Translations under genes and position numbers: made by a program | From: Chloroflexia bacterium | GTDB taxonomy: Bacteria > Chloroflexota > Chloroflexia > Thermomicrobiales > CFX8 | Assembly: GCA_030431755.1 (NCBI GenBank) | Contig: JAUIIK010000035.1 | Span: 1-41,546 of the forward strand | DNA: 41,546 nt | Direction of reading: 5' to 3' | Notes under the pieces: model-generated | The model's input: the letters and a program-made list of their open reading frames with translations, nothing else | Told to the model about the DNA's origin: nothing | The model's database searches: none | In this document: positions 1,849-5,645 of the stretch, one piece after another | How positions within the stretch are numbered: the first letter of the stretch is position 1 | Layout: every line of letters starts with the position of its first letter

Positions 1849-2655
1849 GTGGCCTCTTCCCCGTTTGAACGCCAGGTCATCGACGACGATACGAGCAGCG
1901 ACCGCAACCTCGCGACGCCGCAAATGTCCAGTGGTCCGCAGCAATTCCCACCGACACCGAGCTTTGTGGATCGCGACCGTCCGAGTGTCCGTCTTGTCGA
2001 GCTCCCGGCCTGGTTGCAAGCATTTGCTTCGTCCGTTGGAGAGCCAACCGAGGACGAAACGCCCGAGCAGCAGCCAGCGGAGGAGCCGATGACGACTTCA
2101 AGCAACGACCAGCAGACGCAACCGGCTCCACAACCGAAACCTGCGCCGCAACAAACGAGCGTTGCCGGCACGGACTTCATTAGCGAAGATGACCTACCCG
2201 AGTGGCTGCGTGCCATAGCGCCCGAGGGGCCGGCAGAGTCGTCCTTTGACGCGCTGGTGCAGGACACGGGCATCGACGGCGACCAGATCGCTGTTCCGAC
2301 CATCACACGCGCATGGTCGACATCGAAAGATTCGCGTGGCGTCGATGAAGCGACATCGCTCTTCGCGCTCGTTGCGAGCCAGGCGCCGCAGACCGCCATT
2401 CCTGACCAGCCGGGTTCCGCTCCGGCCGCGCCGGCTCCGCCACGGCAAGCGCCGGCGGAGACCGAGGTTGCAGGCTACGGGTCGGAACACCCGCCGGTGC
2501 TGCCGGCCGTCTCTGCCGACTTGCCGGTAGCGGTCCCTGACAAGACTGAAGAGGGGGCGAAGACGGCGTCGTCACTGCCGATATTGCCAATCGCCGCAGC
2601 CGCGATCATCCTGCTCGTGCTGCTAGGTGTAGCAGCCGTCATGTTCCTCATTTAG
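1849..2655 (+). CDS. Tail-anchored acidic/proline-rich protein of unknown function
   Basis: I do not recognise a named family. The 268-residue product has a long low-complexity cytoplasmic-type region rich in Pro, Gln, Ala and acidic residues, and one hydrophobic C-terminal segment of about 22 residues (LPILPIAAAAIILLVLLGVA and a few more) that ends the protein, so it looks tail-anchored. Two short related motifs, LPAWLQAFA (about residue 52) and DLPEWLRAIAP (about 115), resemble the LPxWL motifs repeated in many Chloroflexota proteins. The GTG start has a strong AGGAGG at 1835-1840, eight bases upstream. It is followed in the same direction by the MutL-like gene after 60 bases, so the two may be co-transcribed. 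It could be an adaptor or scaffold; this is a guess. Confidence 0.6.
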   Translation: MASSPFERQVIDDDTSSDRNLATPQMSSGPQQFPPTPSFVDRDRPSVRLVELPAWLQAFASSVGEPTEDETPEQQPAEEPMTTSSNDQQTQPAPQPKPAPQQTSVAGTDFISEDDLPEWLRAIAPEGPAESSFDALVQDTGIDGDQIAVPTITRAWSTSKDSRGVDEATSLFALVASQAPQTAIPDQPGSAPAAPAPPRQAPAETEVAGYGSEHPPVLPAVSADLPVAVPDKTEEGAKTASSLPILPIAAAAIILLVLLGVAAVMFLI

Positions 2656-2715
2656 GCACGAACGTTTGACGATGTGAAACTGACATCGAATCGCCGCGAT
2701 TTGATCGGGGGTTGA

Positions 2716-4464
2716 GTGGTCACGTACAGAAACACAGATGCGCCGACCGGACTCGAAGATAGCGCCATTGCCGGACCGCGCGAGACTGCTGATGCAGGCG
2801 CCTCGCTGGTCATCGATGTCGATGGGCTGCATGTCCGCGGGATCGTGTTCGACTCTGTCGAAGGCGAGTCGCGTTTTGTCGCATCGTCCCAGGTCATGTC
2901 CACCCTCGGCCCGCCGATCGGCGACCTGCCGACGGCTGTGCGCGAAGTTGTATCTATTCTGGAGGGCCAAACCGGTACGCAGTTCGGCGTTGAAGCCGGC
3001 AGCGAGGATCACCTGGGTCCATTTGCGATAACTGGCTACCCGGTCGCGCCGCTGAGCGTCGCAATCGTTCCGGCGGGCTCGCACGCGCTCACACATGTGC
3101 TGGCGGCGACGGGTCGCGCAACGCCGTCAACGGTCCATATTCTGACGGACGCGGTGCGAACGGAAGACGGCGTGCTGTCGTCGACCCTACTCGAAGTGCG
3201 GCTGCGCGGTATTCGCCCGGATGTCGTCATCCTGCTCGAAGGTGACCGCGCACAATCCGAGTGGGCATCGGCCGTCGGGACGTTCAGCAATCTGATTTCC
3301 GAGGGCGCGGTGGGCCAGCTCATCGTTCTGGCATCGGAAGAATTTCAGCAGTACCTGATCCAGGCACTGGGTGAAGGGGCCAACATGACTGGCCTCGATC
3401 CGAGCCAGTATGAGCCCCACGAGGTCGCCAGCGCGCTCGAAGCTGAGCTGGCCGAGCTATATGACCAGCGTGTTGCCGGCGAACCCCGCTTCGGAATCAA
3501 CCGCGAGCTGCGCTTTGTCAGCCGCTTGCGCGCCGGCGACCTTGCCACGCGCTACCTGGCCCGACGCCTCGAACGGAGCATTGTCTCAGTCGATGTCGCG
3601 GCCGGAACCGCTATCAATTGGTCGACGATGCACGCCGGCGGTTCGTTAGCTCGACCGGACCTTGATGTGCATACGAACATCCGGTCGCTCTTCGCCATTG
3701 GGCTCGACGGGGTGCGGTCAGCATTGCCGCTCGAGATGTCGCGTGAAGATCTTGCAAACTGGGTGCTCAACCGCGCTACCCGGCCGCGCGTCGGCGCGGC
3801 TGTCTGGCGCGACCAGATTGTCGAGAGCGTTGCGCTGTCGGCCTTTGTGGCGGAATCCTGGCGTAACCTCGAAGGTGTTGCGAGCGATCAGATCGATCTG
3901 ATCGTGGCCGGCTCGGGCTTCTGCTTTGATGGCGATCCCGCGCTCGGCGTGCTTGCGGCGCTCAATGGGCTGCGGCCCGCGCCGCTGGGCGGAGTCGTGC
4001 AGGTGTTGCTTGATCCTGACTGCCTGTTGTGGGCCGCCGGCGCAATCGGCGACCAGAGCCCGGCCGTCGCTGCCGACGTTGTCGAACACGATCTGCTTTC
4101 GCCAACCGCGACCGTTGTCGTCGTTGAAGGCGCGGGCGCGGAAGGGCAGCCGGCGGTTTCCGGAAAGCTGACCTACGAAGACGGTGAGTCCGTCGAGTTT
4201 TCGGTCGCCTACGGCTCGATGATGCGCTTGCCGCTCGGTGAGGGCGACCGGGCGACGCTCGTGCTGACCTGCGAACCGGGTTTCGCGGTCGGGGGTAGTA
4301 ACCCCGGCGAGCAGATCCAATTCGGCCCGGAAGAGGGCTTCGAGGGTGGAGAAGTGGGTGTGATTATTGATGCCCGCGGCCGCCCAATGGCGGAGTTTTC
4401 CGACGAAACCGCCGCCCGTGATGCCGTGCGCCGTTGGTACACCGACCTCGGTATCCAGTTCTAG
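2716..4464 (+). CDS. GlmL/MutL-family actin-like ATPase homologue
   Basis: The 582-residue protein resembles the GlmL/MutL family, actin-fold ATPases described beside coenzyme B12-dependent glutamate mutase. Matching segments are the N-terminal strand pair VIDVDGLHVRGIVFD (about residues 32-46), the second phosphate-loop region SIVSVDVAAGTAIN, and the C-terminal LIVAGSGFCFDGDPALGVLA followed by LDPDCLLWAAGAI. The first phosphate loop lacks the Gly-Ser/Thr-Thr usual in the family, so ATP use is uncertain. No mutase subunit (glmS/glmE-like) is in the window. Instead it lies between a tail-anchored protein and a barrel-sandwich protein. The start is GTG with a G-rich stretch upstream. The family call is from motif memory and is moderate. 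Confidence 0.6.
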   Translation: MVTYRNTDAPTGLEDSAIAGPRETADAGASLVIDVDGLHVRGIVFDSVEGESRFVASSQVMSTLGPPIGDLPTAVREVVSILEGQTGTQFGVEAGSEDHLGPFAITGYPVAPLSVAIVPAGSHALTHVLAATGRATPSTVHILTDAVRTEDGVLSSTLLEVRLRGIRPDVVILLEGDRAQSEWASAVGTFSNLISEGAVGQLIVLASEEFQQYLIQALGEGANMTGLDPSQYEPHEVASALEAELAELYDQRVAGEPRFGINRELRFVSRLRAGDLATRYLARRLERSIVSVDVAAGTAINWSTMHAGGSLARPDLDVHTNIRSLFAIGLDGVRSALPLEMSREDLANWVLNRATRPRVGAAVWRDQIVESVALSAFVAESWRNLEGVASDQIDLIVAGSGFCFDGDPALGVLAALNGLRPAPLGGVVQVLLDPDCLLWAAGAIGDQSPAVAADVVEHDLLSPTATVVVVEGAGAEGQPAVSGKLTYEDGESVEFSVAYGSMMRLPLGEGDRATLVLTCEPGFAVGGSNPGEQIQFGPEEGFEGGEVGVIIDARGRPMAEFSDETAARDAVRRWYTDLGIQF

Positions 4465-4505
4465 GCCCGTCACGCTAATTTTGATCACTGAGAGGCGATG
4501 TAAAC

Positions 4506-5645
4506 GTGTGGAGTTTCCCAACACTTGAACCGATTGTCCTGGCACAAGGCACGTTCGCGATTGAGCGCATGTTGCCGCAGGCCGGCGAAGTGCTGGTGTC
4601 GCTCGGCGAGCCGGTCTCTCCAGACGAGGTGATCGCGCGTTCGGAAGATGTTGAACAGACGTTGACGCTCTATGTCGCCAGCGAACTGGGTGTCGACAAC
4701 AGCGAGTTGAGCAAGTACGTCGCGAAGTCGATCGGTTCCACGATCAAGAAGGGCGATGTCATCGCCCGCGTGCGGCGCGGCTTGCGGACGGCGACGGTGA
4801 AGTCGCCGTCGGACGGCACGCTCGTATCTGTCGACGACACGAACGGGACGGTGCTCGTTAGCTCGTCGCTCGGAAAGCGCGAGCTGCTGTCGCTGGTGAG
4901 CGGCGAGGTCGAGCAGATCATTCCCGGACACGGCGCGGTGATCCGCACATCCGGCACCCGGCTCTACGGCATCGTCGGCTTCGGGACTGAGGCAATCGGC
5001 CCGCTAGTTACGGCGGTCGACCGCCCGGACCGCGAGCTTACCGCCGACAGTGTCTCCAGCGATTGGAAAGGCAGCATCGTTGTTGCCGGGATGACGGCCG
5101 GCGCGCCGGCGCTGACGCGGCTGCGCGAGGTCGGAGCGGCTGCTGTAATCCTGGGTTCGATTCCCGAAGGCGATTTGCGCCGGTTCTTGACCGGTGGCCA
5201 GATGAACCAGGATGGCTTCTGGAACCCCGTGACGGCCGCCCACGGCGATCTATCACACCCGTCCATCGAATCGCCGCTGGTGACGATTGTCACCGAAGGC
5301 TTTGGCCGCCGTCAGATGAATGATCGCCTGTTCGACATTCTGTCGGCGCGGGTCGGACAGACCGTCTCGGTTAGCGCTCGCACACTCGTCGGCAACGGTC
5401 TGGCCCGGCCGGAAATCTACCTCGACGACGACGAGGGTGAGGACCGCGGCATCGACGATCGTGTCGTTGCCGGCCGCGAGCTACGTCTCGTGGACTCGGG
5501 CGCGTTCTCGGTTGCCGCTACGGCGCTCGGAGATCCCTATGTCAGCCCGGACCGCTACGGCGTGCGCCGGGTCGTCGCCGATGTCCAGCTGGAGAGCGGC
5601 CAGAGCCGCGCCGTGCCACTGGCTAACATCGAAGTCATCGAGTAA
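4506..5645 (+). CDS. Conserved-looking protein with barrel-sandwich-like segments, unknown function
   Basis: No named family is recognised. The 379-residue soluble protein contains segments typical of barrel-sandwich (biotinyl/lipoyl-like) folds: LPQAGEVLVSLGEPVSPDEV near residue 20, and GSTIKKGDVIARVRRG followed by VKSPSDGTLVSVDD near 80-115. No lipoylation or biotinylation lysine motif (DKA or MKM) is visible. A middle alpha/beta part (IVVAGMTAGAPALTRLREVG, then AAAVILGSI) is followed by a C-terminal segment ending RRVVADVQLESGQ, which could be a KOW-like small barrel. GTG start with GAGAGG about ten bases upstream. It ends the three-gene cassette beginning at 1849 and is followed by an inverted-repeat element and a strong terminator. 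Confidence 0.6.
   Translation: MWSFPTLEPIVLAQGTFAIERMLPQAGEVLVSLGEPVSPDEVIARSEDVEQTLTLYVASELGVDNSELSKYVAKSIGSTIKKGDVIARVRRGLRTATVKSPSDGTLVSVDDTNGTVLVSSSLGKRELLSLVSGEVEQIIPGHGAVIRTSGTRLYGIVGFGTEAIGPLVTAVDRPDRELTADSVSSDWKGSIVVAGMTAGAPALTRLREVGAAAVILGSIPEGDLRRFLTGGQMNQDGFWNPVTAAHGDLSHPSIESPLVTIVTEGFGRRQMNDRLFDILSARVGQTVSVSARTLVGNGLARPEIYLDDDEGEDRGIDDRVVAGRELRLVDSGAFSVAATALGDPYVSPDRYGVRRVVADVQLESGQSRAVPLANIEVIE

Follow-up and report, generated by a model that had tools for sequence, protein, structure and literature searches.

A conserved three-gene cassette of Thermomicrobiales built around a degenerate, MutL-like actin-fold protein

The MutL protein GlmL is thought to act as a reactivating chaperone for glutamate mutase, and in the canonical MutL loci sampled here its gene lies between glmS-like and glmE genes. 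The only paper found to join Chloroflexi, MutL and glutamate mutase simply names MutL a reactivation chaperone (PMC4682846). Here we describe a MutL-like gene in a different setting, on a 41,546-nucleotide stretch (hereafter the window) that is contig JAUIIK010000035.1 of a Chloroflexia bacterium and whose host genome belongs to the Thermomicrobiales (Chloroflexota). Three consecutive open reading frames (ORFs) on one strand, separated by 60 and 41 nt, encode a tail-anchored protein (P1), the MutL-like protein (P2) and a barrel-sandwich protein (P3), as a preliminary description of the window had it. The trio proves to be a real, conserved feature and a variant of the GlmL/MutL kind; as judged by sequence comparison, P2 is a degenerate branch of a subfamily, here called long MutL, that carries an extra C-terminal domain.

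P2 itself has no Pfam match at E values up to 1 and no NCBIfam match, and its assignment to MutL was therefore tested through its relatives. The Pfam MutL family PF13941 was matched by 10 of 19 close P2 homologues, the best at 6.9e-18, and long MutL proteins found with a profile of P2 homologues matched it at 8.5e-59 (Anaerolineae) and 6e-124 (Symbiobacterium), both scoring under the curated NCBIfam GlmL cut-offs. Searched against genome contigs as a single sequence, P2 recovered no relative, but the profile located long MutL in 214 of 400 Chloroflexota genomes, among them the cultured genera Chloroflexus and Oscillochloris, and a profile scan of GTDB added Symbiobacterium-type bacteria to this range. 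As a query against 61 genomes P2 had a match in 27, with full-length P2 ORFs in 24 of them; the matches covered its own family completely (five genomes), family f2 almost completely and both genomes of family f4, and none was found in families f3 and f5, one f3 genome being matched by the profile. The extra C-terminal domain is present in all 86 non-redundant long MutL sequences and contains a D-x-R-[GEP] motif, in most cases DARGRP. None of 30 mutase-linked MutL proteins has the domain or its GxxxDARGRP motif, and the long MutL clade stands apart from these in the tree with a support of 0.999. At other sites in the host genome PF13941 gave only sub-threshold matches, including one on the FtsA-bearing contig. 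A Symbiobacterium metagenome-assembled genome (MAG), with five PF13941 matches, encodes long MutL and P3 as two pairs in tandem, their ATPase loops intact (L170:5089-12693).

No credible match to P2 was found in the Protein Data Bank (PDB) by single-sequence or profile search. An AlphaFold model built from the 86-sequence alignment shows an actin fold, with a predicted local distance difference test score (pLDDT) of 92 and a predicted template modelling score (pTM) of 0.91, and the preliminary description's expectation of a GlmL/MutL-like actin fold for the product of 2716-4464 was thus borne out by the model together with the PF13941 matches of homologues. The top Foldseek match in the PDB is Thermotoga FtsA (3.5e-7), and a second structural aligner gave FtsA 4a2a_A, which includes the FtsZ-peptide complex, a Z-score of 13.6 over 239 residues. 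Hydroxyacyl-CoA dehydratase activators (Z about 12.4), diol dehydratase reactivase (12.0), PilM (11.9) and Hsp70 (about 11.5) follow. A layout like that of Hsp70, with a nucleotide domain, a beta domain and a helix, may be considered for the C-terminal beta domain of P2; most structural matches stop at residue 454. The domain inserted at residues 110-256 best matches the B12-binding subunit of 2-hydroxyisobutyryl-CoA mutase (4r3u_D, Z 12.8; 2yxb, Z 11.5). Receiver domains match it at Z 11.3-11.6 (KdpE, Z 11.6), and profile comparison gave a probability of 2.7% when homology to the B12-binding family PF02310 was tested, with no support from GlmS. Since receivers score so close and the profiles lend no support, the B12-like fold is only a lead. 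Mimicry of a B12 domain by this insert was considered, the likeness being one of fold alone; if canonical GlmL worked by mimicking a mutase subunit, a B12-subunit-like insert would be in keeping with it, but the sequence profiles do not back this.

P2 departs from its relatives in both phosphate loops. These read DCGSTTTK and VDIGGATTD in Symbiobacterium, and D.G[ST]..TR and D.G in most Chloroflexota. The corresponding segments of the window P2 are DVDGLHVR and VDVAAGT, so that the departure of the first loop from the family, already remarked in the preliminary description, extends to the second. Loop 1 ([DE].G[ST]) is intact in 0 of 12 Thermomicrobiales sequences against 55 of 74 elsewhere, and loop 2 in 1 of 12 against 73 of 74; the C-terminal D.R motif is present in 12 of 12 and 74 of 74, respectively. 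The window P2 probably does not use ATP. In two loci of its own family (L046:8628-9788 and L047:8525-9712) P2 is shortened to 387-396 residues and the middle of the actin fold is missing; these sites adjoin dtd and keep P1, and P3 was not found there. Because they retain P1 and P2 without the middle of the fold, a role other than ATP hydrolysis is plausible for the C-terminal part of P2.

Gene order around P2 is conserved. Each of the 23 Thermomicrobiales loci has P3 immediately downstream, and P1 lies upstream in 22 of 23 (20 identified by script, and L030 and L032 by BLAST), which argues that the grouping does not arise by chance. When the genes surrounding some 130 P2 genes were clustered, a larger recurrent operon emerged, consisting of a short ORF, DUF6754 (PF20539), a polytopic membrane protein, a zinc-ribbon/LPxWL membrane protein, a second polytopic protein, P2 and P3 (cluster order c4(DUF6754)-c5-c1-c3-P2-P3), often with an additional transmembrane (TM) protein after P3. 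P3 family members directly follow P2 in most non-Chloroflexia loci and are absent beside P2 in Chloroflexales-type loci. DUF6754 was matched in 89 of the 400 Chloroflexota genomes and in neither the host genome nor the other Thermomicrobiales listed, and the membrane module is absent from Thermomicrobiales cassettes. Degenerate loops are almost confined to loci without the module: the ratio of intact to degenerate loops is 50:2 where the module is present in the locus and 14:13 where it is not (Fisher p 5e-6, with shared ancestry ignored and loops scored by a simple pattern that calls some rows wrongly). The preliminary description had recognised neither the larger operon nor the ATPase loss. 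A literature search found no description of a DUF6754/long-MutL operon and, in the library searched, no paper on DUF6754; the operon is apparently undescribed but widespread. Sequence searches of the PDB with DUF6754, the polytopic protein and the domain of the cluster-1 (zinc-ribbon/LPxWL) membrane protein gave no match, and profile comparison of DUF6754 with the cluster-1 domain returned 4% only.

P1 has a single strong hydrophobic helix (residues 250-268) at its extreme C-terminus, following a region rich in Pro, Gln, Ser and Thr, and no further TM helix, in agreement with the tail-anchored, low-complexity protein first proposed. It carries two LPxWL motifs, a pair that arose in 0 of 5000 shuffles, and the family consensus derived from 863 copies of the motif is [DE][LVI]P[DA]WL[RQ]. 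The motifs and TM helix of the zinc-ribbon/LPxWL family are thus present in P1, but the CxxC zinc ribbon is absent; in most sister genera the protein retains two such ribbons, which the P1 copies of the window and of L029 have lost. P1 is apparently a reduced counterpart of the cluster-1 membrane protein of the larger operon. Cluster-1 proteins (for example, L084:2220-6755 and L179:2263-5298) hold up to 37 PxWL motifs in very long disordered regions, and this multivalent array precedes a TM-domain-TM unit.

The AlphaFold model of P3 (pLDDT 89) comprises a barrel-sandwich, a swivelling beta/alpha domain (Z 9.6) and KOW/Tudor domains. Its N-terminal part has the barrel-sandwich fold of lipoyl and biotinyl carriers but not the modification lysine of the hairpin, as had been noted from the sequence: the position is occupied by Leu93, and lysine is not among the residues listed at this column for 60 sequences.

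The reading that we favour, with a probability of roughly 0.45, is that the trio is a membrane-tethered, non-catalytic remnant or scaffold of a larger ATP-driven membrane complex. In the full form of most Chloroflexota and of Symbiobacterium-type bacteria, DUF6754, the two polytopic proteins and the zinc-ribbon/LPxWL membrane protein would make up a membrane module, on whose cytoplasmic side the long-MutL ATPase and its barrel-sandwich partner would act; the actin fold, opening and closing with ATP, would most likely assemble or remodel this module. In Thermomicrobiales, whose cassettes lack the module and whose ATPase loops have decayed, P1 would be anchored in the membrane through its tail and display short LPxWL peptides to the cytoplasm, P2 would be a pseudo-actin in which the C-terminal DARGRP domain is the part still constrained, and P3 would serve as a multi-domain adaptor. 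We infer that the three proteins form a physical complex, a static membrane-docked scaffold with P1 as the anchor, P2 as the hub and P3 as the binder of a client. Of the original suggestion of a repurposed actin-fold machine, repurposing to work at the membrane is plausible; the word machine fits poorly with two loops that are degenerate across the order and with a P2 of about 390 residues in two relatives. Against the scaffold proposal, intact loops persist in some lineages without the membrane module (L092, L093 and L096), and, the examination having covered the loops only, P2 could bind nucleotide in a divergent manner. A more sweeping version holds that Chloroflexota have an undescribed membrane machine in common with Symbiobacterium-type bacteria. 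A GlmL-derived actin ATPase that has gained a new C-terminal domain would drive or assemble its DUF6754 and polytopic complex, many Chloroflexota would display multicopy, FtsZ-tail-like LPxWL peptides on a scaffold, and in Thermomicrobiales the ATPase would have become a pseudo-actin scaffold. This version is put forward tentatively and is doubtful as a whole.

Docking of the kind seen with FtsA and PilM would give P2 a more specific task, namely reading LPxWL motifs as FtsA reads the FtsZ C-terminal peptide (DIPxFLR), and so positioning a membrane machine or touching the divisome. The best solved match of P2 is indeed Thermotoga FtsA, peptide complex included, and the LPxWL consensus resembles Chloroflexota FtsZ tails (DDLDIPPFLRNR and DDLPPFLK). 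However, FtsA, hydroxyacyl-CoA dehydratase activators, acetone carboxylase and Hsp70 all score within about 2 Z units, and a genuine FtsA gene adjoins FtsZ in the same genome, on contig C203. The FtsZ tails of Thermomicrobiales differ as well: those examined (L249 on C203, and L247, L248, L250, L251 and L252) end in a sequence like [ED]W[AS]EP[AS]IL[RK]FLRE, unlike the usual DIPxFLR tail of other Chloroflexota. P2 is not beside ftsZ and ends in the DARGRP domain rather than in a C-terminal membrane-targeting helix, and in an uncultured Firmicutes MAG (L176) the membrane protein upstream of P2 has no LPxWL motif, so this motif is not a universal P2 contact. We regard such docking as unlikely. 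Decay of the cassette into a functionless relic, for which one could cite the lost loops, the lost zinc ribbons of P1, the truncated forms without P3 in two relatives and the lack of a match in most of family f3, seems quite unlikely given the full-length P2 ORF in 24 of 27 matched genomes, an invariant C-terminal motif and a gene order maintained across divergent genera.

Another reading is that P2 still hydrolyses ATP through its divergent loops and has been turned into a motor or a polymer. Its complete, high-confidence actin fold would then be accounted for, as would the GSG that the window P2 retains at the adenosine site and the Asp kept in each loop; free variation of the loop residues across the order and deletion of the middle of the fold in two relatives make this very unlikely. 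More improbable still is a reactivating chaperone for a B12-dependent mutase, the role thought to belong to GlmL, here serving methylmalonyl-CoA mutase. It would be in keeping with the homology to PF13941, with the B12-subunit-like fold of the inserted domain and with the presence of this mutase and a B12-binding subunit in the genome. Those genes lie on contigs C159 and C194, respectively, away from the trio, and the B12-binding subunit gene overlaps a gene for its own MeaB GTPase (1.1e-65). Most genomes of f3, a family that gave no match to the P2 query, encode methylmalonyl-CoA mutase, and the enzyme was not detected in the P2-bearing genome G007, from which it follows that P2 does not track the mutase. 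No B12-dependent mutase subunits were found beside P2 in the locus and no glutamate mutase E chain (Met_asp_mut_E) in the host genome, confirming that P2 stands without glutamate mutase subunits; the ATP loops are lost, and the long-MutL clade does not adjoin glmS/glmE as the sampled mutase-linked MutL genes do. A new cofactor chaperone, the other suggestion made at the outset, is unlikely on the same grounds, the sole mutase found being unlinked, served by a neighbouring MeaB and distributed independently of P2.

The trio is flanked by dtd (1235-1693) and a convergent dnaK-grpE-hrcA block, and a purine-rich, ribosome-binding-like stretch precedes each of its genes (Table 1). A search with PADLOC models of anti-phage defence, up to an E value of 0.01, gave no match, and a defence-system reading was dropped for this reason.

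Table 1. Features of the P1-P2-P3 cassette and their positions in the window.
Feature	Position	Strand	Basis
P1, tail-anchored, mostly disordered protein, 268 aa, GTG start	1849..2655	+	ORF, composition, BLAST to upstream genes of relatives
LPAWLQAF, first LPxWL motif of P1	2002..2025	+	family consensus [DE][LVI]P[DA]WL[RQ]
LPEWLRAI, second LPxWL motif of P1	2194..2217	+	motif scan
P1 C-terminal TM helix (predicted tail anchor)	2596..2652	+	Kyte-Doolittle mean 3.07 over 19 residues
P2, long MutL actin-fold protein, 582 aa, GTG start	2716..4464	+	homologue profiles, AlphaFold model, structure matches
P2 phosphate loop 1, degenerate DVDGLHVR (canonical D.GSTTTK)	2815..2838	+	alignment
P2 inserted flavodoxin-like domain, residues 110-256	3043..3483	+	structure matches 4r3u_D, 2yxb, KdpE
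P2 phosphate loop 2, degenerate DVAAGTA region (canonical VDIGGAT)	3589..3609	+	alignment
P2 C-terminal beta-rich domain, about residues 462-582	4099..4461	+	model; absent from mutase-linked MutL
P2 invariant C-terminal motif GVIIDARGRP	4357..4386	+	D.R[GEP] pattern in 86/86 long MutL, 0/30 mutase-linked MutL
P3, barrel-sandwich, swivel and KOW/SH3 protein, 379 aa, GTG start	4506..5645	+	profiles, AlphaFold model
P3 barrel-sandwich (lipoyl-like) region, residues 11-149	4536..4952	+	3d4r_B Z 8.5; Biotin_lipoyl 4e-4
P3 Leu93 at the lipoyl/biotin-lysine position	4782..4784	+	column of 60 sequences
P3 swivelling beta/alpha domain, residues 151-308	4956..5429	+	2hi6 Z 9.6; 5fbu Z 9.4
P3 C-terminal KOW/Tudor-like SH3 barrel, residues 315-379	5448..5642	+	structure and profile matches

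These results define a distinct long-MutL clade that is present in about half of the sampled Chloroflexota genomes and is encoded within a conserved membrane operon. As GlmL/MutL is annotated as a mutase chaperone, the labels of hundreds of Chloroflexota proteins are probably wrong. The graded loss of loops and membrane partners also offers a natural series for probing what the ATPase was for and what work is left to the DARGRP domain.

Among described systems, the PF20539 (DUF6754) membrane protein belongs to the parent operon and was not found in the host genome or the other Thermomicrobiales checked. The N-terminal fold of P3 is that of RnfC_N, NQRA_N and biotin-lipoyl domains, to which it has weak profile matches, but P3 lacks the modified lysine and carries a swivel domain and a KOW/SH3 barrel in the same chain. 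With the diol dehydratase reactivase DdrA (2d0o, Z 12.0), EutJ (Z 11.9) and corrinoid-protein activators P2 shares an actin-fold chaperone or activator architecture, whereas its locus has no partner enzyme and its loops are degenerate. The membrane adaptors FtsA (Z 13.6) and PilM (Z 11.9) are its best structural matches and likewise have a membrane-anchored partner with short linear motifs, the likeness in peptide docking being a resemblance of motifs only; P2 differs in having no detectable sequence relation to them and no membrane anchor of its own. Closest are GlmL/MutL of glutamate mutase and Or-4 of ornithine aminomutase (PF13941, TIGR01319, NF040745, NF040744). Long MutL departs from these in its DARGRP C-terminal domain, its separate clade, its sub-cut-off NCBIfam GlmL scores and the absence of an adjoining mutase. 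The Thermomicrobiales P2 has lost the loops in addition; of the features that mark PF13941 members, the window protein has the actin fold but not a profile match of its own, intact ATP loops or a mutase partner. The homologous actin-fold core and the inserted domain are shared, and the Symbiobacterium long forms match PF13941 strongly and keep their loops intact.

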